A DNA stretch of 64,000 bases from Nitzschia sp. pyKryTriq1 (taxonomy: Eukaryota > Bacillariophyta > Bacillariophyceae > Bacillariales > Bacillariaceae): assembly GCA_956465555.1 (NCBI GenBank), contig OY101119.1, positions 372,001-436,000 on the forward strand, in the 5' to 3' direction. Position 1 is the first letter of the stretch. Each line of letters opens with the position of its first letter. Below are positions 4,166 to 52,084 of the stretch, in pieces. The notes beneath the pieces are model-generated. The model searched no databases and was not told the origin of the DNA. It saw nothing but the letters and a program-made list of their open reading frames with translations. The translations under genes and the position numbers were made by a program.

Positions 4166-7100
4166 CTAGTCCTTCTTGAGCACCAGGGCCTGCTCCGCCA
4201 TATCCCGAAGTGCCTTGGAACTTTCAGCGCCCGTAGCATCGACCAACTCGGAAAATACTCCATTAGAAATATTCAAGAGCTCCACTGGCGATCCAAATTC
4301 AACCGCCTTGCCCGCATCCATGACCAATACCAAATCATAATCCATAATTGTATTGAGCCTGTGAGCGATCGTCACTAGAGTGGTTTCGGGAAAGCGCGTC
4401 CGAAGCATTCGTTGAATAAAGGCATCCGTTTCGCCATCTATACTTGCCGTTGCTTCGTCCAAGACCAATAATTTGGGTTGAGACAACAAGGCACGAGCCA
4501 AGTTGAGCAATTGGCGTTCTCCCACTGAGTAGTTTGATCCACCTTCTTCTAGCTTGGTTGAAAGCAACGTCTTGTCATCGACGCTGCTGGAGCTTCCTAG
4601 CCGTACGGCCTTCAAGGCTTCAACGATGTTTTCATCAGCGTGATGGCCAAACGGGTCCAAGCATTCTCGCAAGGTAGCACCCGCTAAGAAAGGATCTTGA
4701 GGAATAATCGTCATACCTCTGCCTCTGACATCCGACAGCCCCAGACTTCCAAGATCAATGCCGTCCAAGGAAATTTGTCCTGCTTCGATTTCGACCAAGC
4801 GAAAGAGGGCTACCGTGATGCTCGACTTGCCAGCTCCAGTTCTTCCGACTACGCCACAGGTCTTGCCAGCTGGGATGTCAAAAGATAATCCATTCAATGC
4901 CAAAGGCAATCCTTCGCGGTAACGTAAGGACACATTATCAAACTTGAGAAGTCCACGCTCTGGCCAGCTGGCCGGTGGTTGATGATCGGGGTCGGTGTCC
5001 ATAGCCTTCTCCATCGGCAAATCCGCCATCGCGTCCACCCGCTCAATCGCCGTAATGGCGGCTTCCGTTTCACTGAAGGTATCCACCAAAAAGTTGAGAG
5101 TGATTGTAAAGTTGGAAGACCACATGATCAAGAGACCAACGAGGCCGGGTTCGAGATTCAAAGAATCGTTCAAGCAAACCACCAAGACTGATGATACCAA
5201 GACGACAATAGAACCCAAAAGTTCCATCCGAGCGCCCAGCCATCGCTGGGCTGACACAAAGTTCAAGAGCGCTGAACTATTTGTGTCGGCGACGCCTCGG
5301 AAGCGATCGACAAAGTTGGAGTCTTGATGAAAGACGCGGATACTGGTGGAACCCTCGAGACATTCGCTCACCATGGACTGGAGGGGTGAACGGCTGAGAG
5401 CGTCAATGCGCTGTAGATCGGGCCCAGACATGCGATAATGCAACATCAAGAACCAGTACATACCCGATACCGGGAAGACCACCAGTGCGCTCCATGGCAA
5501 AATGGTACACTGAATGCAGACGCCCGCAACATACCTGAAAAATTACATAAAACAATGGTGAGGACGTGTGGTGGTTTTTCGAGGCTGCGATAGCCAATAG
5601 CCAATAATTTATTTGTCAATCTGAAGTCGGTGGACTCACCAAGAGCAGCTAATCATAAACATGGACATGACTTGAGTCAGCGTTACATCATTGATGTCCG
5701 TATCGTAGGTGAACCGATTCAGAATGCGACCCATGGGAACGGTTTCAAAGTAAGACATGGGTGCCCTAAGCACACTTGACAACATGGTAGCAAAGACGTT
5801 GCGTGTAGCCCTTCCTCCGCCCGTGACAGCCCATTCGGATCGAAGGGCAGTCGCAACGAAGGAGACTACAATCAGAGTAGCGTAGACTCGCAAATACTCT
5901 GCCTGTGCTGAAATACCGTCCGTTTGAGGAGGGAATTCAATCCCGAGAATGTCCACCGGTCCGTCGGCAGCAGCCGTCCACTTGGCCAAGAACCATTCTA
6001 CCGCAACGTAGACAAGTCGGTCAATACCCATGAACAAGATCTGCAAAGACATGAATTTCCAACCTCCAGCACGTTGAAACCAGAGCAACCATGTTTTGAG
6101 ACTCGAAAGTCCATGCTCACGCTGTTCGACTTGAATGAGTCGGCCTCGCTTCTTTGTTCCTCCTGTTTCGTCCTCGTCCACCCCCTTGTCCGCGTCCTTT
6201 TCGGCTTCGTCATCACTGTCACTTTCTTCGGTGTTTTCTCGGACAGATGATTTGATGTGATCCACTGCTCGCAAGGTAATTTCGTCCGTGGGATGAAAAT
6301 GAGCCAATTCGTCCCAGGAACCCAAGAATCGATCTTGACCCTCGACCAGCAATAAGATTTTATCAATAGCTTTGTGGGTGATGAAATGCGAGGCATGTGT
6401 CACGAGCAGGATTGCCTTGTCTTTCAGCAAGGCTTCCGGAGAAGCAATGAGTCGTTCAAAAACCGTTTTCCCAGTGCCAGAATCCAAGGCACTAAATGGA
6501 TCGTCCATTACGTACAAGCTGGCCGCCGAGTTGTAGGCGGCACGCGCCAAGGAGACGCGTTGTTTTTGCCCTCCAGAGAGCGTCACTCCTCGTTCTCCAA
6601 TTTCTGTCAAATCTCCCGAGGCTCCCAATTGTTCAAGATCGGGCCGCAGACAACACGCGTCCAATACTTGATTGTAGCGTTCTTCGTCCATGGGAAGCCC
6701 AAACAAAATGTTGTCACGGACTGTCAAATTGAGAATGAATGGTGTTTGAGGAACGTATGAAATGGGTCCGTGAATTTCAACCTTGGTGTCTCCCAGAGCT
6801 TCCGCTTCTTCCAGGATACCATTGATCAAGGAGGATTTCCCACTTCCTACGGGACCACAAACAGCCATAACCTCGCCTTTGGCAATGGAAAAGTCAAACT
6901 TGGAAACAGTAAATCCCGAAGTATCTTGTGTCGATGGATCTCGCAAAAGCTCCTCTTTCGTGGGAGGGGAGTCTCCAATTCGGAATGAGGCATGCTTTAA
7001 AGTCAAAGGCTGCTTTTCATGTTCGGGTGTAGTCGATTCTTCCTCTTCCGAGGCAGGAGTCGTTTGGTTGGTCGCCACCCAAGCAGCATCTTCTCCTTCC

Positions 7101-32868: not shown

Positions 32869-35466
32869 ATGACGTCTCGGCCGTACATTTTGTGCTCACT
32901 GGTCGCCATCATTTTATTGGAGCCCGTCGTCGCTAAATGGCGATTTCCCTTTAAAAGCGTCAAGGGGGCTGCAATAGATGCCGCGAGTGCGGCATCTTGT
33001 CCACCAGATGCCTCCATGGAAGATATTGCGGCGGGTATTTGTGGAGCAGCAGCAGCAGCGGGAGGGGATGGCGGTGTGGGCGGTGTGGGCGGTGTGGGCG
33101 GGCCAGCCAAGAAACTCAGTCAGCTGCTAATGTTTGACTGGAAGCAAGTGAAAGAATGGCCAGGGGTCCAGCTGCCTATGCAAGCAGCAAGCTGGGCCAA
33201 AAGTGTGATTCTCTATCAGCCTCCTGTGGGGATTGTCGCTGCTTGGGCGATTTCAAATTTGGTCATGTCGGGGCGTCTCTTTCGATGGAATACACCACAA
33301 AAGGGAGAGGGTCGCGGCGGAGATGCTTCCGAACAGGCCCTGTCCAAAAAGTCGTCTAGGCTGGATCGGCATTTCGGGCGAGCTTTGGATCTGGATAAGG
33401 ACGATTTAGACTATCAAAAATTTGGCGGGGTGGAGCGCGTTCGACGGCGTCTGATGTGGAAGGCTTTGGAGGAAGCGAGTACCCGGGTGATTCCCTCCTC
33501 GACGCCAGAAGGAGGCGACCCCGTGGAAGAACTTGTAGGATCGCTGTTACAGCTCATGAAGATATCCTTTCCACCGGGTGGATCGCATGCGGACTATATT
33601 GAACAGTTGCTGGGCCCCTTGGCGGAAGCGGAACTAGCCTGGTTGCAGTACACCAGTGGTAGAGCCAACGACCCCGAATTGGCTCGATTGCTAGAGATTG
33701 CCATGCAGACTGCCGAAAATCGTGTTTTGGATAGTATGGTACGATTGGCACGGGATCGATTGGTTCGAACTTCCTTTCGCTTGTCCCGGACAGTCCAGCA
33801 TTGGAAGAAGCGAGTCCAATCTCAATCCAGTATGTGGCCGCCACTAGTCAGATCATTCATGGCGGGATCCTTTGAGGGCGATCGAATGCGACTGGCCTTT
33901 GCCGAATCAGCGTATCGTTCAGAAGTGACTCGTCTCGGCAAGGTTGTGAATTTCTTGTTGGAAAGACCAGAGGGAATGGATGATTCGTATTTGCAAATGG
34001 CGGTACAAAAGACCTACATGATGGGGACGACTGCTCCCGCCAAGCCCAAAAAATTTCGATGGAAGAAAAGACTTACCCCAGATATTTCCAACTGGTCTAT
34101 TCGATTCAACGCAGATGGTAGAGGCAAGATTCAAATTCAAAAGTACGAAGACGCCCTGGGGATTGAAGGCCCAGGTGCTTTGGAAGTATTGCTGGAAGAT
34201 TCGGATCAGCGAGAGTGGCTAGCGGCGTCCAAGGAATGGACTCGAAAGGCGCGTAGCATGCTCGTGGGCATTGTGGACGAAACATTAGAGACCAGTATCG
34301 AGGCGAGTATGGAGTACCAGGTACAACTAAAAAAGATACAATCGACCTGGATGGTCAAGGAGTACTCTGAAGGACGGGGCACCGCGGAGCTTGTGCCAGA
34401 GGATATTGCTGATTCTTGGCAGCTAGTCTTTGGCATGATCCGGGACTTGCAAAAATTCCGTCGTGTAGGAGATGGCAAGAGTGTGAAATGGAAGGATGCC
34501 AACGTCATTCATTGGGCTCGCCAGTGGGACTTGCTGGGGATTCCATCAGCGGCACTCCACATTATTCTGGCGCGAATGGTGCACAATCGCGTCATGCCCT
34601 ATTGGCCAAGAATGAAACACTTCCTTCAAGAAACCTTTGAGGTGTCGAATGAGATTTTTCAGAGTCGCTTTTGGATTCCGATTCGGGACTTGCTCACCGA
34701 GCTGATGTATCGAGATACGAACTCTCTTCTAATGGGAATCCAGCTGAACGACGAAGAAACCTCCTTGGACTATATGCTCCGTGACCTGAACTTTGGAGAC
34801 GGTACTCCTGAAACACGTCACGAAGCCATTATTAAGGCGACGCGTCAATATGAGAATGATATGGCTACTGGCTTGATGCGGCATGCCATCGGGGGTCGCT
34901 TGATTCGTTTGATTTTGATTCAAGTACAACAACTCAAGGTCGGAATGCTGCATGCGGCAGATACAGTCGACGTCTTGTTGCAAACAAACCGATTCAATAT
35001 CCAACTCTTGGCGATTATTCCGGCTTTTGTCATGGTCTCTCTCGGCACCAAATTGTTCTTCCGCTCTCTATATACTCTGCGTCACAAAGATTTGAGACCC
35101 ATGAGAGTTGTCCACAGCGAAATGACAGGCTATCTCAATCAATTGGAAGCAATATTGTTGTTGGCAAATGATCAAGACATAAGTGAGAGTAAACAACGAA
35201 CGGGGGACAATCGGCCGATGACGGCACTTGGGGCCTTGGGCGATCAAGAACTGGGAGAATTCGTATTGAATCTTTATGACTATTTGGTGCTATTGGACTA
35301 TTCATCTCCCACACCCTTTCCGAGTTGGCAATGCGATAGCATTCACCAATCGATTGTGGAATTTCTGGGACCGAAAGGATCTCTGAGTCGAATGGGACTC
35401 CATGATCAAGTCAGATTGATCTCCCTTCTCAAGAGGAAGCATGATGATTTGGCCAAGAACCTGTAG
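32869..35466 (+). CDS. NCA2: NCA2-family membrane protein with N-terminal signal, 865 aa
   Basis: NCA2 (nuclear control of ATPase) proteins are mitochondrial membrane proteins linked in yeast to expression of ATP synthase subunits; the diatom role is unknown. The protein begins MTSRPYILCSLVAIILLEP, a hydrophobic leader ending VVA, followed by an Ala/Gly-rich stretch (GGVGGVGGVGG). A likely membrane segment lies near 110-132 (PVGIVAAWAISNLVM). The long middle is helical and charged. The C-terminal region carries the NCA2 hallmark: IGGRLIRLILIQVQQLKVGM, then a membrane helix with NIQLLAIIPAFVMVSLGTKL near 705-725, then MTGYLNQLEAILLL and GEFVLNLYDYLVLLD. One exon. The leader looks more like a secretory signal than a mitochondrial one, so the compartment is open. 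Confidence 0.75.
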   Translation: MTSRPYILCSLVAIILLEPVVAKWRFPFKSVKGAAIDAASAASCPPDASMEDIAAGICGAAAAAGGDGGVGGVGGVGGPAKKLSQLLMFDWKQVKEWPGVQLPMQAASWAKSVILYQPPVGIVAAWAISNLVMSGRLFRWNTPQKGEGRGGDASEQALSKKSSRLDRHFGRALDLDKDDLDYQKFGGVERVRRRLMWKALEEASTRVIPSSTPEGGDPVEELVGSLLQLMKISFPPGGSHADYIEQLLGPLAEAELAWLQYTSGRANDPELARLLEIAMQTAENRVLDSMVRLARDRLVRTSFRLSRTVQHWKKRVQSQSSMWPPLVRSFMAGSFEGDRMRLAFAESAYRSEVTRLGKVVNFLLERPEGMDDSYLQMAVQKTYMMGTTAPAKPKKFRWKKRLTPDISNWSIRFNADGRGKIQIQKYEDALGIEGPGALEVLLEDSDQREWLAASKEWTRKARSMLVGIVDETLETSIEASMEYQVQLKKIQSTWMVKEYSEGRGTAELVPEDIADSWQLVFGMIRDLQKFRRVGDGKSVKWKDANVIHWARQWDLLGIPSAALHIILARMVHNRVMPYWPRMKHFLQETFEVSNEIFQSRFWIPIRDLLTELMYRDTNSLLMGIQLNDEETSLDYMLRDLNFGDGTPETRHEAIIKATRQYENDMATGLMRHAIGGRLIRLILIQVQQLKVGMLHAADTVDVLLQTNRFNIQLLAIIPAFVMVSLGTKLFFRSLYTLRHKDLRPMRVVHSEMTGYLNQLEAILLLANDQDISESKQRTGDNRPMTALGALGDQELGEFVLNLYDYLVLLDYSSPTPFPSWQCDSIHQSIVEFLGPKGSLSRMGLHDQVRLISLLKRKHDDLAKNL

Positions 35467-37935: not shown

Positions 37936-38515
37936 CTGTAAATTTACACCCAAATCAAGTGCATTAGCAACATGAAAGTAAACACCCCCAACCCCAGCCA
38001 AAAGGCACGCATCGTGCCACCCATTCCTTTGGAGCGAGTCGAGAACCCTCCACTTGAGAAAGGCGAGTACTTGACGTACAAGCTTCGTAATAACCCCACG
38101 GATGACAGCAGTCCGCTGTACGAACTCTCGGTTCCCTTCTTCGGAACCGGTACTCCACACCACAACTCAAGCAACCCCAATGCAACTCGTGTTCGGACGA
38201 GACGCTATTATGAACATCCAATTCGAAGCAAATTGGAAACTGATCAAGGATCGAAAACAGAAACTTATCAAACAAAACAACGCGCGAGAGAACTCGAAGC
38301 GAATTCCCCATAACTACCAAGTCGGGGACGAAATCCTCATAAAACAGGATCAAAACACAAAATTCGGAACGGACCCATACAAAGGTCCATACGTTATTAC
38401 GGAAGTTCGAAACAATGGAACCGTTCGCGTTCGCGAAGGCATAATTGAAGATACTTATAACATACGAATGATAACCCCTTACAAACGCTCGTAGATCCCA
38501 GAACATGGGGGCGAG

Positions 38516-39300: not shown

Positions 39301-42300
39301 CTAGAGTAGTACGACCTTCTCCTCTTCCTTTTCGACGGCCTTCATGAGTTTTTGGCGGGCCGCCTTAGTTAAGGCGTTTTTCTTGCCAAGCTTTCGTTCC
39401 AAAATCGAGAGTGACTTCTTGTGGAATTCCTGGGCTTCGGTAAACTCGCCTAGCATGCTGTGGAGGGTGCCCATCACACCGAGCGCTTGGGCGGTGTCAG
39501 TGTGATCCTTGCCCAAGGACGACTCTTTGATTTCGAGCGCCACTTGGACTTCGTCGAGAGCCTCTTCCAGGTCTCCTTGTGCAGCCAGGACAGCACCAAC
39601 TTCAATACGAGCCGTAGCAGATTCAGGATGCTCTTCTCCGCACAGCCCAACGGTAATGGCTAGAGCCTGTCGATATGCGACGAGTGCTCCAACGAGATCG
39701 CCCTTTTCGGACAAGAGTTTACCGATTCGGGCGCAAGAAACGGCGGTGTCGGGGTGGTCCTTGCTTAGGATATTGGCGCGAACTGCAAGAGCCTTTCGGT
39801 GTTCAATGAGAGAATCGTCCTTGTCGCCCTTGGCAAACAATGCGTCAGCAAGGCATTGATACCCGGTTGCAGTTGCAGGGTGGGTCTTGCCAAGGGTGGC
39901 CTCAAAGATAGCAAGTGCCCTTTTGTGCTCGTTCAAGGCGGCATCGTGCTCCCCTTTCAGGCTCAAAACATTGCCGACTGCATTGTAGGCAACGGCCGTG
40001 TCTGGGTGCCTCTGACCAAGAAAGCTTTCCCGGACAACCTTAGCCTTTCGAAATTCTTGCAACGCTTGATCAAATTTTCGTTTCTTCAAGTATACTTGGC
40101 CCAGGTCGAGATGCGAACCAGCACTAACTGGGTGGTCCATGCCCAAATTCTTTTCTCGCATCTTTATAGCTCGTTTGATGCTCTTGATGGCTCCATCGTA
40201 GTCTCCTTTTCGTTTCAAAACCTCGCCCAAGTGCGTCAACGACACCGCGCAATCCTCATCGTCCTTACCCTTGACGGCTTCTTGAATTCGTAGCGCCTTT
40301 CGATACCGCCACTCAGCAACTTCGTAGTCACCCTTTTGACGTAACACGATACCAATATTTGTGTGGGAATGGGCCGTCAGCGGGTGATTCTTTCCCAGGA
40401 CTGTCTCGCGGATAGTAAGGGCCAGGCGATGCTCCTCCATAGCTTTGCTGAAGTCACCCAATTCACACAAGGTCGTTCCAAGCATGGATCGAGTAACAGC
40501 CACGTCAGGATGTATGTCGCCCAAAACAGATTCCTGGATCTTAAGCGCACGGCGTAGTTCCGCTTCGGAACTCCTAAAATCTCCAGTATCTCGTAAGGCA
40601 CAGCCGATGTCTTGCAACGAGTTGATCACCAAAAAGTGCTCTCGGCCCAGTTGTTTCTCTCGGACTTTCATCGCGTCTCGAAATTTCTTGAGAGCGCCGG
40701 CGTAGTCCCCCTTCTGAGAAAGCATGTGGCCAATCTCGGTGTAAGTATGTGCCACCTCGAGGTGGTCTGTGCCCTGGATGGATTCTTTGATGGCTAGCGC
40801 CTTTTCCAGATTAAGAAGTGACTCATCGACCTCTCCTAGTGCACCAAGCACGAGACCGAGGCCCATGTAAGTGTCGGCTATATCCTCGTGGTCGTCACGG
40901 CCTTCTTGCAAAAGCAGTATTCGTCGATATAGTTCCAGGGCACGGTCAAATTCATCAAGTTTGTCTCGACACAGTCTTGCAAACAGGCGAAGCTGGTCTG
41001 GGTCTTTAGATTTCAAAAGTTTTACCATGCACTGGCCACCAATCTCTCCGTACTTATTGAGCATGCCAAGGTCTTCCAAAATTTGATCTTGAGTACGCCA
41101 GGGGCCAGCGAAAGCGGAACGGAAGTATTCATAGTGTTTCGGCATCCCAAATTGTTCGTCGAGTGCCTTCATATCTTTCAAATGCACTTGAATCTCACAG
41201 ATGTGGGCAAGATCGTCTTTGTAAGGGATGGAAACATGATACAGTAGATCCCGATAACCGTTAAAAGCGGGCTCCAAAAATCGATTTTTCGAAGTGACAA
41301 TATGGGCGTTTTTGCCCAGCCATTTGTTGACATCATTCATTTGTTTGTAGGATTTGCACATCACGCTTCCACGGACAATATCATACAGCCACGACTCCGG
41401 AGGACCTGGTTTGCGATCAAAATACTCTTCTTGTGCCTTCTCGAATGCTTTGTTTCGTTGTTTCAGTGGGACTACAATAATGCTGCCCCCGTCCAAGCCT
41501 TTGATTTCTGCGATTAATTGTTCAAGAAGTCTCTTCAACTCGAGCTGAGCAAGTTCAGCGGCATCATACAGATCGTCGAGAGTTCGAACGATTTTGTTAC
41601 GGAGATCGTGCTGCTGATATTCCTTTTTGTATTTCCCGTTTTTCTTGAGGATACCTCCGGAGTGTAGCTTGACCTTAATCGACTGGAATTTCCCCGAAGA
41701 GTCCATGAGTTCAGCTCTTTCGTCCACCTTCCTGCGTACTTCAAAGAAGTGCTGGAGGCGATCGAAGAATTGCTCAACTTTTGGATTTGCTTTCTCTTCT
41801 TTTGGCTCGGTCTTGGTCCCTGATTCATCTGAGTCGCTCTTGCTTGTATCGGAACCCTCGCTCTTGTCCTCGTCTTCCTCTTCCTCCTCCTCGTAATCGA
41901 CTTCATATTCTTCATATTCTTCCTCGTCCTCGTCCTCGCTGTCGCTTCCGTATAAACCAGGCATGGATCTTCCCATGCTACTGAGGTCATCATCGCCGTA
42001 GTCTCGCTTTACTTCCAAAATATGGCCGTTTTCGTCGGGCAGCGCAAAGTCTCCTTCTACTCCTTCACCTTCCCCGTCATGATCTTCTTCGGCATCTTCG
42101 ATTTCAGCAGCTCCGCCATCTTCTAGTTCATCTGCATCGTCATCATATACCTCGCCGTCCTCTTCTGCGGCATCATCGTCGTAAAGCTCATCGTCGTCAG
42201 TCTCAAGGCCGGACTCGTTTTCCTTCACAAACGATTCTGCCGAATCCATTCCAGCGAGTTGCATTTCTCTGTAGGAACCACCCAGATCGGCAGTTCGGTA

Positions 42301-44661
42301 TGATCGCTCATATTCCTGAGCATCGTGTCTCTTTTCGGTCTCTAGCTGTCCTGAATATTCGGATGGTTCAGAACCTTGAGAACCTACTGAGGATGAGCCT
42401 CCTAATACCATTTCGTTGTACGAGTCTTCGACACCTTCCGCCTGAGACGAAGAATCAGGGTCGCCGTATTTTTCTCGGTTGCTGCCTTTGCGATTGGAAA
42501 GATCTTCGGACTCCAGGTCAGACTTGTCAGCCAACTGTAATTCGTAGTCTTCGTGGCCAGGGTCCGAGCTAACATCATCCGGATCGCCTATGCGCCGTCC
42601 AGAATCCAGTTTCTCATGATTGGTTGATGCGGACCCCAGATCATCAATGTCGCTTGTCCGATGTTCATCGTGAGATAAACCATCGTCATCGAATTCGTCG
42701 TCGTCCATCGATAGTGAAACAGCTGAATGATTGAGTCCAAGATCGGAGCGTCCTGGGGACTTCAAAGGAGATGAGTCCTGAGCTGAACCTTCCAAAGAAT
42801 TCAAAGCATGCCTGTCGCTTGATGGTTGGCCATGCTCTGAACTGACATTTATTGTTCGTCGGTGCCGAGCACCTTGGTGAGAATTTGCGTCTTTTTCGAC
42901 ACGGTTAGAATCTGAACTTTCGACGCGATGAGAAGTTGAATTCTCAACGTCGGTGTCGGGGTCAGCCTCCAATGGCCTTCGCGGACTAGTTGGTGGCCGA
43001 TCCATCGAGGGTTGTTTCGACAGCGTAGTCTTGTCGACACCATTGGGGCTCTTATGGTTCTGTTGGAGGTGCATTAGGGATTCCTGCAGCGAGGAGGAGC
43101 TGGCGTTGTTCTCCGTCAAGGATTGATAGTAATCAGTGACATGACGTTCGATTTTGGTCAAAATATCTAGAAGAGGAGCCATACTCGCATATCTCATTCG
43201 CTTCGCCAGGTCCTCCAGCTTATCAAGTTCCGCCTTGAGAGCCACTGTTCGTGATGAGTCGGCCAAAGTCAAAAGTGTATTTAACTTTTCTTCCGCTGCA
43301 ATCCCTTGCTGTAAGAGAGTCACATCATCAAAGGGTCGAGCATAATCTTCCGCTCCTTCGATTTCCCGCATTGCCATTAAAAGATGCGTATCACTGGTAA
43401 TAATTTCTCCTGAACTCAAACTCCTCTTTGACTGGCCTCGCTCCGTCTTAAGTCTAGCCGCTTTCGTGTGACCGGCCAGAGCTGTGTCACTAATCGTCCG
43501 CCGTGGCGAACTATGAAAGTCGAAACGGCCCTTGCTCTTGATTTCCACTTCTCCATTGTCATGGTTGGACATTCTTGGAGTGGGGGCGGAAGTGGGTGTC
43601 GGTGTAGGGAGAGGTTCCTTGGTAGCTGTACCATTGACATTGACCTCTGGTTCGTCTGTATCCAAGATGTCTGCAACTGAAAGACTCATTTCCGACTGTG
43701 CGGCAGAATTTTGTAAACTACTATCGATACCAGAGTCATCGTCGGTGATTCCCTCTTTGTCCCTCCGTCGTTCTTCGTTGAAGCACTCTCCGAATAGCTC
43801 AATGACCTCTGGCTTTGTAGCTTCTCGCCAAGAAGTTCTTTCGGTACGTCTTGTCCGGACGAGGAACCGTCGTCCTTTCAGCTTTTTCTTGATAGCTTTA
43901 TAGACAGGTGGACTGTATTCCTGGCCCACAAACTTTTCTAGACACTCTCGAATGACAATAATCCAGTCTTTGGTACCGGGATGGTGCCGGTCATCGAAGC
44001 AAATATCTGTGTCGTCTGGATTGTAGATGACTTCCACGCCGTCAATGATCTCGACAACTGGATCGTCTTGTATCGCGTCTCCTATATCCGAAACATCGTC
44101 GTCGTCTTCGGCTGTATGCATAGCGAGAATCTCTCCGATCGGAGGACCCGCCTCGAATATTTGCGAATCTTCCATCATGTCCATATCATCATTGATGTCA
44201 TCTTCTAAACTCGCTGCTGCCGCACTATCCGCCTTTTGGGGAGGCTTGGCATCCGCATTGGATGAAATTGACTCGCCCTTGCTTATTTGATCCTGCAGTT
44301 GCTGTTGTGGTTGTTTCATGTCGGCATCATCATCTTCGAGCTGTTCATTCCCCTCCTCAATATTAATCATATTATTGTTTTCGTCCTCATCCTTATCCTC
44401 ATCCTTGTGGATCACGAGATGACGCTTGCTCTTCTTGCTACTACTACTGGACTTTTTTGGTTTTTTCTTATCTTTTCCACCCAGAGAAGAAGAAGATTTT
44501 GGCTTTTTCTTTTTTGCCTTGGATTCGGTACTCATGAGCGTCATGGAACTTTCGGGTTTTACTACACCGTCCTTGCTCTTCTTCTTCTTCTTTTTGGGGC
44601 TTTTTTCACCCTTTTGTCCCTTGACGAGACTCCGTGAACTTTCTGCGTTTTTCTTCGGCAT
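39301..44661 (-). CDS. Large TPR protein with RelA/SpoT-like and DUF6824-like domains, 1786 aa
   Basis: A single exon from MPKKNAESSRSLVKGQ. Residues 1-215 are Lys/Ser-rich then acidic. About 219-300 resembles DUF6824 (DICFDDRHHPGTKDW, GRRFLVRTRRTERTSWREA). A long Ser/Asp/Glu-rich region follows to about 990, including a strongly acidic block. About 1000-1190 resembles the RelA/SpoT nucleotidyltransferase fold: SIIVVPLKQRNKAFEKAQEE, WLYDIVRGSVMCKSY, KNRFLEPAFNGYRDLLYHV, ICEIQVHLKDMKALDE. The GYRDLL and EIQVHL blocks match the catalytic-core positions, with the EIQ Glu kept. From about 1225 to 1770 come twelve 42-residue repeats of kinesin-light-chain/nephrocystin type (GxxHPxTAxxxxxxG). Whether it makes a nucleotide is unknown; it may be a binding fold. 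The TPRs imply partner binding. Previously such proteins would be labelled kinesin light chain from the TPRs alone. Confidence 0.88.
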   Translation of the reverse strand: MPKKNAESSRSLVKGQKGEKSPKKKKKKSKDGVVKPESSMTLMSTESKAKKKKPKSSSSLGGKDKKKPKKSSSSSKKSKRHLVIHKDEDKDEDENNNMINIEEGNEQLEDDDADMKQPQQQLQDQISKGESISSNADAKPPQKADSAAAASLEDDINDDMDMMEDSQIFEAGPPIGEILAMHTAEDDDDVSDIGDAIQDDPVVEIIDGVEVIYNPDDTDICFDDRHHPGTKDWIIVIRECLEKFVGQEYSPPVYKAIKKKLKGRRFLVRTRRTERTSWREATKPEVIELFGECFNEERRRDKEGITDDDSGIDSSLQNSAAQSEMSLSVADILDTDEPEVNVNGTATKEPLPTPTPTSAPTPRMSNHDNGEVEIKSKGRFDFHSSPRRTISDTALAGHTKAARLKTERGQSKRSLSSGEIITSDTHLLMAMREIEGAEDYARPFDDVTLLQQGIAAEEKLNTLLTLADSSRTVALKAELDKLEDLAKRMRYASMAPLLDILTKIERHVTDYYQSLTENNASSSSLQESLMHLQQNHKSPNGVDKTTLSKQPSMDRPPTSPRRPLEADPDTDVENSTSHRVESSDSNRVEKDANSHQGARHRRTINVSSEHGQPSSDRHALNSLEGSAQDSSPLKSPGRSDLGLNHSAVSLSMDDDEFDDDGLSHDEHRTSDIDDLGSASTNHEKLDSGRRIGDPDDVSSDPGHEDYELQLADKSDLESEDLSNRKGSNREKYGDPDSSSQAEGVEDSYNEMVLGGSSSVGSQGSEPSEYSGQLETEKRHDAQEYERSYRTADLGGSYREMQLAGMDSAESFVKENESGLETDDDELYDDDAAEEDGEVYDDDADELEDGGAAEIEDAEEDHDGEGEGVEGDFALPDENGHILEVKRDYGDDDLSSMGRSMPGLYGSDSEDEDEEEYEEYEVDYEEEEEEDEDKSEGSDTSKSDSDESGTKTEPKEEKANPKVEQFFDRLQHFFEVRRKVDERAELMDSSGKFQSIKVKLHSGGILKKNGKYKKEYQQHDLRNKIVRTLDDLYDAAELAQLELKRLLEQLIAEIKGLDGGSIIVVPLKQRNKAFEKAQEEYFDRKPGPPESWLYDIVRGSVMCKSYKQMNDVNKWLGKNAHIVTSKNRFLEPAFNGYRDLLYHVSIPYKDDLAHICEIQVHLKDMKALDEQFGMPKHYEYFRSAFAGPWRTQDQILEDLGMLNKYGEIGGQCMVKLLKSKDPDQLRLFARLCRDKLDEFDRALELYRRILLLQEGRDDHEDIADTYMGLGLVLGALGEVDESLLNLEKALAIKESIQGTDHLEVAHTYTEIGHMLSQKGDYAGALKKFRDAMKVREKQLGREHFLVINSLQDIGCALRDTGDFRSSEAELRRALKIQESVLGDIHPDVAVTRSMLGTTLCELGDFSKAMEEHRLALTIRETVLGKNHPLTAHSHTNIGIVLRQKGDYEVAEWRYRKALRIQEAVKGKDDEDCAVSLTHLGEVLKRKGDYDGAIKSIKRAIKMREKNLGMDHPVSAGSHLDLGQVYLKKRKFDQALQEFRKAKVVRESFLGQRHPDTAVAYNAVGNVLSLKGEHDAALNEHKRALAIFEATLGKTHPATATGYQCLADALFAKGDKDDSLIEHRKALAVRANILSKDHPDTAVSCARIGKLLSEKGDLVGALVAYRQALAITVGLCGEEHPESATARIEVGAVLAAQGDLEEALDEVQVALEIKESSLGKDHTDTAQALGVMGTLHSMLGEFTEAQEFHKKSLSILERKLGKKNALTKAARQKLMKAVEKEEEKVVLL

Positions 44662-47271: not shown

Positions 47272-50200
47272 TCAAACATCAGCAGTGTCCTCGGGGTAAA
47301 TCAAATCGCGGAATTCGTCGGGGGATGCAGTTTCCATTGGCGTCTGAGGATAGATCTCCGAAAACGCGTTGCGGAAAAGATCGGATTGCAAAGCATCCTG
47401 CTGCAGTTCCGAGAAAGTTCCGTGCCAGTCAAGCCAGGTATCGCATGCCAGAGCTATCATCTGCTTACAATTCTTGACCAAGAGATCAAGGTCCAATTGT
47501 CGCACACCATTGTCGCAAATCGACTCATCGTCTCCAAGGTCGTGGAATTGTTCGTAAATGGCAGTGGCACGGCGCCTCATCAAAATGCAAACGGCGATCG
47601 CTCTAAGCAGCACCGATTTGGACGGCTGTCGTCCGCACGAAAACATTGGTCTGAAGGTCTTGATAAAGTGATCAACCTCGTTCGCCGTAAAAGTTTCAAG
47701 TTCTTTCACGTACCCTCGTTCGTCATTTTGGAGAAGGCGCCGTGTCTCAATCTGGCTCAATGTCTTCCGTGGGTACCCTTCTCTGAGGCGCTGTTGAGCA
47801 AGAGCAGCGTAGAGTCAAACTGGATTATCAAAAATATGCTCACAGATCAAGAATGCCTGCCAAACGATCGCACTTACCACAAGCTCGTAGGATTCTCCAT
47901 AATCGATAAAGATCTCTTCTTCTTGCCCATCTGCAACGAAACAAAAGTCGCCATCGGCCACGTGCGTATGCCCCAGAAGATAATGAAGAGAGCCCTCCGG
48001 ATCAATCTTAGCGTGGACAGAAGGAGTGTCGTGATTGGGGTCGTTGATTTCATTCAAGAACGAAGGAACATGCTTCCTGGCAACCAAGTGGAGTTCTCCC
48101 GTCATGTTATCCGTGATATCAAGATAGGAATCTGCGTCGCGACTTGGAAAGGCATAATTCTCGTTCTTGTACGAGTGGATAATGCTCTTGATCATAAACT
48201 CGTGGTCGCTGCGACAGTCTTCGGTTCGATACGGCGCGTAGACACCAAAGTCCAGCAGCTCCCCGGCTGGCAATATGAATTCCTCTGGTATTTGTACCGA
48301 TTTGATGAGCGGACGTATCGAGAGGAAGACCCCGAAGCCCGCATTTTCGATTGTAGATTTCTTCACAGTAAATCTCAGCAAGTACCCCCTGTGGGTGATT
48401 TCAACGCAAGGGAGTTGACCAAATCCAGGAATGACTGGCTCTTCGGCTGGTACCATCTCTCTCCGATAGGTACGTGGCACTATCCATTTAGTATGGAATG
48501 GCGCCTTGGAAGCAAGTCGCTTGGACGGGGGATCAGAACCATATTGGGAAGTATTGAGACAGCCATCCCATGCTTCATCAGAATCGAAATCCCATGAAGT
48601 AGGCACATGAAGCTTGCCGCGACTCGACTTGTTGATCGGGCCACGTGTCTGGTCTTCATAAACGACCGTGAACTTTTCTTCCCCGCCATCCATCATATCC
48701 TTGACGACCTTTGTGACTCGACCAGTGAGACACGCCAGAGATCCGTCCACTCGAATCCACTCTTTCCAGAACAGACCACCGATCAAAGGATGCTGTGAAA
48801 CTGGAACAAGCAACTTGGCGCCAATCTGTGTGTAAAAGTGGTTGCTACGCGACTGAACCTCGGAAGCGTCGTAGCCACAATGCCTCAAAGCCTCCTCGGC
48901 AGATGAAAAATGCACGTCGTTCAATGGCGGCAGAATTGTCAATCCTCGAAGATCTTCGTGCTCCACTTCTGATGTCTCCTCTTGAGAAGCAAAATAAAAA
49001 GTCCAACCAAAAGGGAATCCCTTCGCGTACTGTTTCTTTTCTTCTTGGGACCACTTCGTGCAGATGCGGCGGAGACAGGCTAGAGGATATCGAGCGGTTC
49101 GTCCTCGGTTGCTAGTGCAGCTGGAGCAGCTAGTACAAGTTTCTCGAGTGCACATTTCGCACGTTCGACATCGATTTCGGTAGAGTGCAGGTAGATTGTC
49201 TCTCACTGCTCTCGTCCGATCACTGTCGTCCCTCAATATTGCCGTCAGAGTACTTTCCATTTCCGACTCGGAAGAATCGATTTCTATCACTGATGGGGTG
49301 CCGTCGTCGTCCTGCTTCTGGCGCTTCCTAGGTGGCTGGTCCAGATCATCATTCCCAGCTGCCTGTGCTGATGACCGCCTGGTACAGCATTCCATTCTGG
49401 CAATCTCGTCTGGTGGTGAGTTAAATCCAAGGTACTTGTACAGTTTCTCCGGCGCATCAGGGAACAAAGCAAAGCTTGAAGGGTGCTGCCTTATGGCATC
49501 TTCTATGGAATAGTATTTTCTACCAGTCGGCGAAAAGATGGTCAGGCCGTCCAAATTCACTACGACTTTACTTTTCATTGAGTCAGAGGATGAAAAGTAA
49601 AAGGTCCAGCCATTGGGTAGAAAATCCGATTTTTGCATCTTGTATTGGTCGTCTATCTTGAGGCACATCTTTGGAGAAAGGGTGTCAGTATAAACTTTAG
49701 CAAGACGACGACGAGACAAAAACGAAGATACAAGAGCAATCTCTGAACAACGACGTACCATTCGAAGACATCCAACTCCCGGCTTGCGGTGTACACACGT
49801 ATCGCAAGCTCCACAAGGACTTCGGTTGCAACTCTCGCACGTTCCACAGCGCCTTTGGTTTATTTTCTTTAGACTCCAAGGCTGGTTGGCTTCTTCGTGT
49901 GGAGCAGGATTTCTTGCGGCATTGTTGAGTGAAGCTGCGGTGCTGCTGGCTGCCGCCGAGGAATGGGCTGTTGCCGACACCGCGAGTCCTACGTAGCGAT
50001 AGAAATCCACCGCATCGTACCCGTCAAATTGCTTCCCCCCTTTTTTCTTTGCTGTTTCAAAGCTCCTCCATTTCTTTGTCCCGTTCCTTTTTGTGAGTAC
50101 CAGGCCAGCGTGATCTCGATTCTTATCCGATTCCTCAAAGTAATAATACCATTCCGAGGGAATGTGCTTACATTGCTGGGCCTTATCCTGGGGTGGCAGT

Positions 50201-52084
50201 ACCGCGCACATCTAGAGTACAATAGACGGTAGTAAATGATTGAGCGGACGATTTCGTTTCCATATATAATGCACTGTAGCTGTCTCCCTCGCGCGTTAGT
50301 TGGAATAACCAAACTCACTCACCTTTTGAACGCAGATCGGGTGTGACGGTGTCACTGTATCACGATTTTGGATGCATACGATACAAGATCCACAATCACT
50401 CCGCTCTTGGCACTGGCTACAACTTCCGCATTTTTTATCGTATAGTTCATCGAGGGTCAGACCTGCACGAGTAATTTTTTCGTCAGCCGCTGGTTGTTTC
50501 TTGCTCGTTACAGTAGCAGCAGTAGTAGCAGTCGTGGCCTTGGCTGCTTCCTGCTCCTTCTCTGCGGGGAGTGGTGCGGAAGCAGTCTCGCTTTCGTCAG
50601 GAGCATCATCATTTCTACTAGAACTGCTATTATCAGGCTCCTCGAAAGCATCCAAGGGTGGAGGCCCATCTCGTTCCTTATTCCATTTTCGGATGTAGGC
50701 ATGTGGAGCTTTTGGAATCACTAGTTGACGATTCTTTTTGGAGAGTAGTTTGATTGCTTCCTCCATTCGATGGAAATAACGGGACGCAATTCCATCCAAT
50801 TCGTCCCCATCCGCGAATTTGATCTTGTACATTGGCCTCGATCCAAGACCTATCCATTTTCGTTCCACCACACCCCAGTAAAAGTCTACAGGTCGTACCA
50901 TAGGAATATGACAGAGTATTAGACGAGAGAACACACACACACACAAGCCAGTTTTGAGAAAGTTTGGTAAGGAGACCGTTACATAAGCGGTGGGAGACAA
51001 AGAGGCACCAACAAGTGCTGGGCCTGCACTGAGTAATACTGTACGAGAACGAGCACTTACCTCCTGATTTTGCGTCCGGAAACGGGGCGAAGACGGCGCT
51101 TCCCTCTTTGAGGAGACTGTCCTTGAAAGCAACCGTCTCGTATTTAATTTTCTGCTCGCAACGAATGGGATCAGACTTTGTTCCTGCCCCAGCGGCCGCC
51201 CGGCGTTTGCTTGTTCCTACTGCTGCTGATGCTCCTTTCGCCCCATCATTACGGCAAGTACTGCTCTTGGTAGAGTCCGGCTTGGGCAGCTCCTTATTCC
51301 CGTCCCCCTCGTCTGGAGAATTCTTTACTGCCCAGATACCTTTATACTTGTCCCACTGAAATCCACCTTTTGGAGCCCGCCCCAGAGGCTTTTTGAACGT
51401 ACCGTCATCCAGTTTGACTAGTGGTTGGGTGTTGTTGGGAATCAGATGCCCTTCTTTGGTTTGCTTTAATCTCCAGCCCTTGTAGACACCAGGTTGTTCC
51501 GCAGCAGCAGTACTCGTACTGTAGTTGCTTTTCTGCTGGTGCTGCTGCTGCTGCTGCTTTGGTGAAGGAGAATCCTCCTCCTGCTCTACTTCTTCCTCGT
51601 CGGACGAAAATCCATCCAGACCGGTAGTCTTCAAAGAGGCACCACCGCTCAGTCTCAGTCGCTGCACAAGCTTTTGAGACGAGGCCGGGGAGGATGAAGC
51701 ATCATCCTCGGACATTTCTGCAGTCTTGTCGTCATCATCATCATTATCACCACCATCATTGTTGGAATGCTTATCATTGACTACCTTGACAACTCCAATG
51801 TCCGAATCATCATCGTCGTCGCTTTCCAAGAGTTGAGAGAACTTGGCTCGAGCCACATCAAACTGATTGAGCTTTTCATTTGGTGTCTCCTGATGCTGAG
51901 AGGATGAGAGCGGCGGCACATTTTCCTCTGCCTCAGCTTCGGATTCGGGTAGATCATACGCTACATCATCTGGTTGGCGGGCAATCTTGGCGGTTTGGGC
52001 CACTATGTGCGACAACGAAAAGTCGTGGTCGATGTCGCTGTCGGAAAAAGAACCGGCTGGGTTGTCACCGTGGCCGTGTTGCAT
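47272..52084 (-). CDS. Chromatin protein with three CXXC zinc fingers, MBD-like and Tudor-like segments and SET domain, 4 exons, about 1479 aa
   Basis: Probably a histone lysine methyltransferase. Exons: 52084-51061, 50885-50323, 50211-47878, 47790-47272, all GT-AG and in phase. Residues 1-341 are acidic, with GRAPKGGFQWDKYKGIW. A Tudor-like segment follows (DFYWGVVERKW, YKIKFADGDELDG). CXXC fingers lie at about 494-534, 649-684 and 874-914 (CGSCSQCQERSDCGSC, CGTCESCNRSPCGAC, CRTCEMCTRETCTSC), each closing with a later Cys pair; the first closes across the exon 2/3 joint (CVQK-MC). After each finger comes an MBD/TAM-like block (GWTFYFSSSD with SPTGRKYYSIEDA). The SET domain spans about 1139-1310: STIENAGFGVFLS, ELLDFGVY, PSFLNEINDP, EEEIFIDYGESYELV, continuing across the last intron as RLREGY. 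The usual NHS-type motif reads FLNEIND. CXXC domains typically read unmethylated CpG. The C-terminus is helical. Confidence 0.85.

Follow-up and report, generated by a model that had tools for sequence, protein, structure and literature searches.

We analysed a window of 64,000 nucleotides from the diatom Nitzschia sp. pyKryTriq1 (contig OY101119.1; genome of 40.65 Mb in 20 contigs) and focused on one open reading frame (ORF) on its reverse strand (positions 39301-44661, stop included), which translates from an ATG into 1786 residues with no internal stops. Within this protein, hereafter the window protein, residues ~1022-1200 (41062-41598; these and all further positions within the protein are on the reverse strand) make up a domain that we identify, from sequence profiles, a predicted fold and a tree, as a member of the RelA/SpoT synthetase (SYNTH) superfamily. 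The domain is preceded by an acidic linker (residues 830-954, 41800-42174; 46% Asp or Glu by composition) and followed by 42-residue tetratricopeptide repeats (TPRs) of the kinesin-light-chain/NPHP3 type (residues 1226-1775, 39337-40986). The Pfam families above cut-off in the window protein are of the TPR type only, including the nephrocystin-3 TPR model; TPR_10 matches 12 stretches and TPR_12 matches 10 (TPR_12 E-value 2.6e-99), and a count of twelve repeats therefore fits. A sequence-only reading made earlier had described a genuine ORF of this extent with twelve TPRs and a long acidic linker, all of which is borne out here, and had quoted three motifs, beginning at residues 1091, 1126 and 1155, as the mark of a nucleotidyltransferase fold.

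Two more copies of the segment flagged by that reading, 50% and 52% identical to it, lie elsewhere in the genome, both on contig C2, where the two paralogous genes (692 and 961 residues) are divergently oriented with ~2.6 kb between their start codons according to the ORF coordinates. Both paralogues have an acidic or charged stretch, then the SYNTH domain, then TPRs, in the same order as the window protein. The window TPR part finds its two best matches in the TPR parts of these paralogues (39% identity over 498 residues and 45% over 252), other matches in the genome being 24-34% identical, or 39 and 42% over two pieces of fewer than 100 residues. The three proteins also have in common a conserved stretch directly N-terminal of the SYNTH domain (residues 961-1020, 41602-41781), and a module at residues 454-521 of the window protein (43099-43302) recurs at the N terminus of the 961-residue paralogue (28% identity; BLASTP E-value 2e-6 against this one subject, with filters and composition correction off). 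Our eukaryotic scope was one genome, and the searches ignore introns; expansion of the architecture, which the earlier reading had proposed to look for in diatoms, is seen as three SYNTH-plus-TPR copies within this single genome.

To place the domain, we compared the diatom trio with bacterial and phage proteins. A profile of the three diatom sequences had YwaC as its best match in the PDB (0.012), and scanning viral and prokaryote contigs with the same three sequences gave 145 and 272 pattern-matching stretches, respectively, none of which was confirmed. The 692-residue paralogue matched Pfam RelA_SpoT at 3.9e-4 as a whole protein and at 5.4e-5 as a fragment, both under the cut-off. A translated search with this paralogue returned a tandem pair of genes on a Photobacterium plasmid (2e-8) and a Bordetella phage gene (9e-3), the product of which is above the Pfam RelA_SpoT cut-off. 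Further relatives were gathered from ten viral contigs, one of which (L019) appears to repeat the Bordetella phage, and from seven Vibrionaceae genomes. In the phylum of the Vibrionaceae relatives, 10 of 299 genomes matched (the centre genome counted), nine with a short form of 257-297 residues in open frame and one with a 463-residue frame.

A profile built from 20 bacterial and phage sequences, with no diatom row and with the database size set to 20000, recovered all three diatom proteins at E-values of 8.4e-21 (window protein, residues 1026-1169), 1e-18 and 8e-17. By the same profile, two canonical RelA/SpoT homologues (RSHs) of the genome scored 1.3 and 1.4, and 4000 shuffled segments gave nothing better than 1.8, which rules out chance resemblance for the window protein. 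A profile of 22 rows, the three diatom sequences and 19 from bacteria or phages, matched Tas1/Apk1 in the PDB at 5.2e-17, YwaC at 4.1e-11, SaEAS (8vx3) at 3e-5 and other small synthetases at 7e-6 to 2e-4, with one unrelated chain at 0.38. The earlier proposal of a RelA/SpoT-type synthetase domain is upheld by both profiles and by the fold described below. Searches of NCBIfam and PHROGs returned nothing for the window SYNTH domain; in PHROGs, 8 of the 22 members of the 22-row alignment match phrog_7625, "head morphogenesis".

Alignments of 22, 20, 25 and 24 rows were used, drawn from 28 and 6 distinct cores with near-copies excluded. The distant matches L049, L050 and L063 and a partial match on a Rhizobium plasmid (L052, E-value 3e-4) were left out of every alignment, an Azospirillum relative (L051) entered the 25-row alignment and the tree only, and a relative of the type VI secretion system (T6SS) type (L090) entered the tree only. 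A match on a Pseudomonas aeruginosa plasmid (E-value 0.3), which runs antisense to a gene for an oxidoreductase, was attributed to chance and discarded. A class-level search matched 11 of 369 genomes, and nine of the 11 matches look like canonical RSHs (frames of 713-760 residues, E-values 2.6e-7 to 9.8e-6) and were set aside.

An AlphaFold2 model of the SYNTH domain, made from the 24-row alignment, had a mean pLDDT of 78.1 and a pTM of 0.73, while an earlier model from three sequences was poor (pLDDT 47.5). Foldseek found 70 matches in the PDB at E-values up to 0.001, led by RelP bound to AMPCPP and GTP (2.7e-8), and the best 50 of the 70 are all RSH-family proteins, including RelP, SAS1, SAS2, two Streptococcus pyrophosphokinases, Tas1, CapRel, FaRel, Rel/RelSeq, SpoT and RelA. 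The structure prediction that the sequence-only reading had proposed as a check gives a SYNTH fold and not an unrelated one. The TM-scores of the fold matches are moderate (0.40-0.62), the root-mean-square deviations are large and the last quarter of the model is weak (pLDDT 41-67); bacterial and viral rows make up most of the underlying alignment, so the model cannot count as evidence separate from the sequence argument. In a viral structure library, the top match of the window-domain model bears the name RelA/SpoT. The model matches a protein of the giant virus Fadolivirus (BFVD model A0A7D3R1N1, "relA/spot nucleotidyltransferase") at an E-value of 3.1e-4.

We then examined the active site. 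Across all 24 rows of the alignment K1067, K1075, D1094, R1097, N1126, P1131, G1135-Y1136-R1137-D1138, E1156, Q1158, H1160, H1176 and Y1179 are invariant, and residue 1071 is always Lys or Arg. In the 25-row alignment, which includes the Azospirillum relative, both Lys and the D, R, G, Y, E and Q stay invariant, as do H1176 and Y1179. These residues comprise the basic loop motif (Lys1067, 41461-41463, with Lys1075 as the second invariant Lys), a D-x-x-R motif (Asp1094 to Arg1097, 41371-41382), a GYRD motif that contains Tyr1136 (Gly1135 to Asp1138, 41248-41259) and an EIQVH motif (Glu1156 to His1160, 41182-41196), in which Gln1158 follows two residues after the Glu. In SaEAS, the substitution D121A leaves the enzyme inactive, the ATP-binding pairs given for SaEAS and Apk1 are R124/R330, E182/E382, N169/N370 and K154/K353, and SaEAS Q184 also binds ATP, its Apk1 partner being printed as Q382 (PMC12691689). 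Mapped through the Tas1 alignment from the 22-row PDB search (numbering offset 21), Apk1 R330 (SaEAS R124) corresponds to R1097 and Apk1 E382 (SaEAS E182) to E1156, and D1094 stands three residues before R1097 as SaEAS D121 does before R124. Judged by these alignments, the catalytic core is kept while some contacts are changed. The Glu of the EIQ motif, which the earlier reading had pointed out as retained, is E1156, and the mapping of acidic and basic-loop positions that it called for finds D1094, E1156, K1067 and K1075 retained both by the paralogues and by the relatives from bacteria and phages.

Three canonical RSH genes lie elsewhere in the genome and, as single open frames, have SYNTH above cut-off in all three, HD_4 above cut-off in two and below it in the third, and TGS seen in one; the NGYQSLH motif is present in all three. 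A tree of 41 rows, which included these three together with 14 bacterial canonical RSHs, the diatom trio and the Vibrionaceae-type, phage and T6SS-type relatives, separated the canonical RSHs at 100/100 from the diatom TPR proteins and these relatives. By this tree, the window domain groups with the branch of RelV, exported, phage and Apk1 synthetases, apart from the long-RSH branch, and an origin from the canonical RSHs of the genome was rejected on the tree split and on the presence of separate canonical genes. Pfam found neither an HD hydrolase nor a TGS domain in the window protein, which by its predicted domain content is not a long RSH. The diatom trio forms a single group (100/100), and its position inside the branch is unsure: support for joining it to the phage group is low (83/46), the branches are long and the bootstrap is not fully settled, and we therefore name no donor. 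As to the canonical genes themselves, the third (L032, contig C17:718570-719034), the one with HD_4 below cut-off, has an altered ATP loop and is possibly degenerate or specialised, judging from its sequence.

Among known systems, the exported alarmone synthetases of the RelV group (VpEAS, Vibrio cholerae RelV, SaEAS) resemble the window protein in having SYNTH without HD and the same D-x-x-R and E-x-Q core. Of the bacterial relatives found, those nearest to the diatom domain come from Vibrionaceae and are short, with N termini that look like signals; their taxon, size and N termini, together with the description of such proteins in PMC12691689, suggest that they are of the RelV/VpEAS type. 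Unlike the exported synthetases, the diatom domain sits in a 1786-residue TPR protein with no visible export signal. The first 84 residues of this protein are rich in Lys and Arg (44410-44661; 36% K/R) with no hydrophobic, signal-like stretch seen by eye, and Pfam found no secretion-delivery domain, so we do not call it an exported synthetase. Apk1/Tas1 (PDB 6ox6), an effector that Pseudomonas aeruginosa delivers by its T6SS, is described as a (p)ppApp-type enzyme of that system (PMC12691689) and, under the name Tas1, as a homologue of the RelV subfamily (PMC7591505). It matches the diatom domain in the Arg, Glu, Gln, Asp and both loop Lys, but its sequence has no KNRFxxP stretch, its N370 and K353 are unmatched in the diatom domain, and it carries a fused delivery domain (PMC7591505), its structure having been solved with an immunity protein.

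Other comparisons are with algal proteins. Phaeodactylum tricornutum has three canonical RSHs, and such diatom enzymes (RSH1, RSH4a and RSH4b; PMC6881373) belong to the same superfamily and the same kind of host as the window protein, but the canonical RSHs of our genome, with their HD_4 domains and NGYQSLH motif, stand across a 100/100 branch from the window domain. Divergent one-domain synthetases, divRel[S], have been reported from Thalassiosira pseudonana and P. tricornutum (Atkinson et al. 2011, PMC3153485); like the window domain they are divergent and SYNTH-only, and the accessible part of that source describes them without architecture beyond SYNTH and without activity. Compared by description, they could be orthologues of the diatom trio. 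In some green algae, TPRs are appended at the C terminus of RSH4 (Ito et al. 2017, cited in PMC6881373), an arrangement of synthetase and C-terminal TPRs like that of the window protein, but on the long-RSH side of the superfamily. The sequence-only reading had called the system undescribed. Among the top-listed papers of the open-licence literature, we found no description of a eukaryotic SYNTH-plus-TPR protein of the RelV/Apk1 branch, so that the claim may hold for the TPR architecture of this branch, while divergent diatom synthetases (PMC3153485) and TPR-bearing green-algal RSH4 (PMC6881373) were already known. Kinesin light chain and nephrocystin-3 proteins have the same 42-residue TPRs (TPR_10, TPR_12, TPR_NPHP3), and Pfam, at E-values up to 1, found no further kinesin-light-chain or nephrocystin domain in the window protein.

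The gene surroundings of the relatives were also recorded. In Bordetella phage vB_BbrM_PHB04 (L011:2080-4345), the SYNTH domain occupies the C-terminal half of a protein whose gene adjoins the portal gene, and an HD_4 hydrolase gene (E-value 3.3e-21) lies one small ORF beyond, forming a synthetase/hydrolase pair; relatives of this phage protein occur in viral contigs L013-L022. The Photobacterium genes are tandem pairs of short, signal-bearing, SYNTH-only genes (L010:3845-4633 and 4853-5677, with cores ~54% identical; also L023-L026), and the Vibrio and Enterovibrio loci L027-L029 have single copies only. The 463-residue frame (L061/L090) is Tas1-like in its C-terminal SYNTH part and has, judged by eye, a PAAR-like region.

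Outside the SYNTH and TPR regions, the window protein has a segment at residues 216-305 (43747-44016) that the earlier reading had likened to DUF6824. DUF6824 is typical of diatoms. Pfam returned no DUF6824 (PF20710) match for this segment at E-values up to 5, and in searches with local DUF6824 profiles the window protein ranked behind shuffled segments, at 123rd for a profile of five sequences and 306th for one of 14. The segment is matched at 8 other places in the genome at an E-value of 1.5e-4 or better, and a profile of the segment and seven of these places aligned to the five-sequence DUF6824 profile with a probability of 74 (P 2.8e-5). DUF6824 was dropped as a firm assignment, the profile-profile comparison being a hint in its favour; a relationship is plausible on this comparison, and the segment looks like part of a small sister family of DUF6824 in this genome, which has at least 150 DUF6824 matches compared with none in 14 control genomes. 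A 1174-residue open frame at contig C13:616900-618672 has three copies of the segment. Elsewhere in the window, an 865-residue ORF on the forward strand (32869-35466) has an NCA2 (ATP synthase regulation) domain (E-value 7e-20), a short forward-strand ORF (38102-38494) had no Pfam match and resembles the tail of a Ty3-like retrotransposon polyprotein, and a 798-residue ORF on the reverse strand (47815-50211) has a sub-threshold CXXC zinc finger (E-value 2e-5).

The above analyses suggest that the window protein is a large, scaffolded alarmone-type synthetase that is probably cytosolic or nuclear and probably active, a reading to which we assign a probability of about 0.62 because of the homology, the predicted fold, the kept catalytic core, the two paralogues of the same domain order and the separateness from canonical RSHs. 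In this protein, the SYNTH domain, flanked by a long, acidic N-terminal half on one side and a twelve-TPR solenoid on the other, would take pyrophosphate from ATP and attach it to a nucleotide at the 3' hydroxyl. The acceptor would most likely be a guanine or an adenine nucleotide, yielding (p)ppGpp or (p)ppApp; a guanine nucleotide is our tentative first choice, an adenine nucleotide seems a less probable one, and something else, such as tRNA, is somewhat less probable again. The TPRs would bind a partner that positions or switches the enzyme, and the acidic half and the DUF6824-like segment may contribute localisation or partner binding.

Several observations weigh against this reading. The window protein has no match to Pfam RelA_SpoT, its domain falling under the Pfam cut-off, and the window domain is only 16-32% identical to its bacterial and phage relatives. 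Apart from the three canonical RSHs, no HD_4 was found in the genome at E-values up to 0.1, introns ignored, and hence no evident means of removing a cytosolic product. Two of the five Apk1 ATP-site residues are unmatched (N370 falls on Leu1140 and K353 on Ile1121). The Apk1 N370 column has Asn in 6 of the 24 rows and in none of the three diatom rows, and the K353 column has Lys in none of the 24; the relatives therefore lack these contacts too. Whether the canonical loop Arg (SAS1 R46; PMC6881373) is kept depends on the register of the alignment, its position being 1065 by 3l9d and 6fgj and 1069 by YwaC. Position 1065 is Pro, Glu and Glu in the three paralogues and Arg in none of the 24 rows, and position 1069 is Arg in all three paralogues and something other than Arg in most bacterial rows. 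The unmatched contacts and the divergence, together with the housing of the domain in a huge scaffold protein, would also be expected of a pseudoenzyme, in which the SYNTH fold serves as a nucleotide or alarmone sensor and the protein acts solely as a TPR scaffold. We consider this unlikely, though it is the most serious rival, since decayed enzymes usually lose residues such as the Asp, Arg, Glu, Gln and both loop Lys, which are invariant here in the three paralogues and in all 24 rows.

An active domain could alternatively pyrophosphorylate RNA at the tRNA CCA end, as FaRel2 or CapRel do, instead of making a free alarmone. The structural matches include CapRel (7ztb, 9erv) and a FaRel complex (8pu1), and tRNA-modifying relatives are known (PMC11559606), but the best PDB profile match is Tas1/Apk1, a (p)ppApp-type enzyme (PMC12691689), and in the tree the domain neighbours synthetases of the exported type and of phages, so we regard this as improbable. 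The same neighbours invite the idea of an immune-type or self-restricting effector, a synthetase from an interbacterial or phage lineage freed by the TPR part upon infection or damage: phage, T6SS-type and exported-type relatives were found, and the diatom trio is placed among them. Builds of an effector with TPRs are common in defence proteins. Against it, the diatom group is joined to the phage group with low support, as given above, and Pfam found no NB-ARC, NACHT or other NTPase family in the window protein at E-values up to 1, and hence no NTPase switch domain; an NLR (nucleotide-binding leucine-rich repeat receptor) or STAND identity was rejected on this ground, the "NLR-like" label of the sequence-only reading is not sustained, and the effector idea carries a slightly lower probability than RNA pyrophosphorylation. 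The TPR-only Pfam profile would suit an ordinary kinesin-light-chain-like cargo adaptor with a chance resemblance to RelA/SpoT, but the profiles, fold matches and tree show homology far beyond the 4000-shuffle control, which refutes this explanation and leaves it a negligible probability.

Taking the scaffolded-synthetase reading further, diatoms might have a second, non-plastid alarmone system, in which a weapon-like synthetase of the bacterial and phage branch was domesticated on a TPR solenoid and duplicated, and in which a protein-protein trigger (stress, infection or a cell-cycle partner) would lead to (p)ppGpp or (p)ppApp in the cytosol or nucleus, a signal whose study in these algae has until now concerned the plastid. 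We put this forward as a speculative proposal, doubtful in its full form.

Alarmone work in algae and plants, as represented in the papers considered here, centres on plastid RSH enzymes. The gene family described here is a separate candidate source of alarmones: it has another ancestry (the RelV/Apk1/phage branch), shows no hydrolase domain and includes a scaffold for protein binding. Should its members be active, the presence of an alarmone in the cytosol or nucleus of a eukaryotic alga would become directly testable, and an enzyme domain of the exported or toxin type would have been recast as a host regulator.

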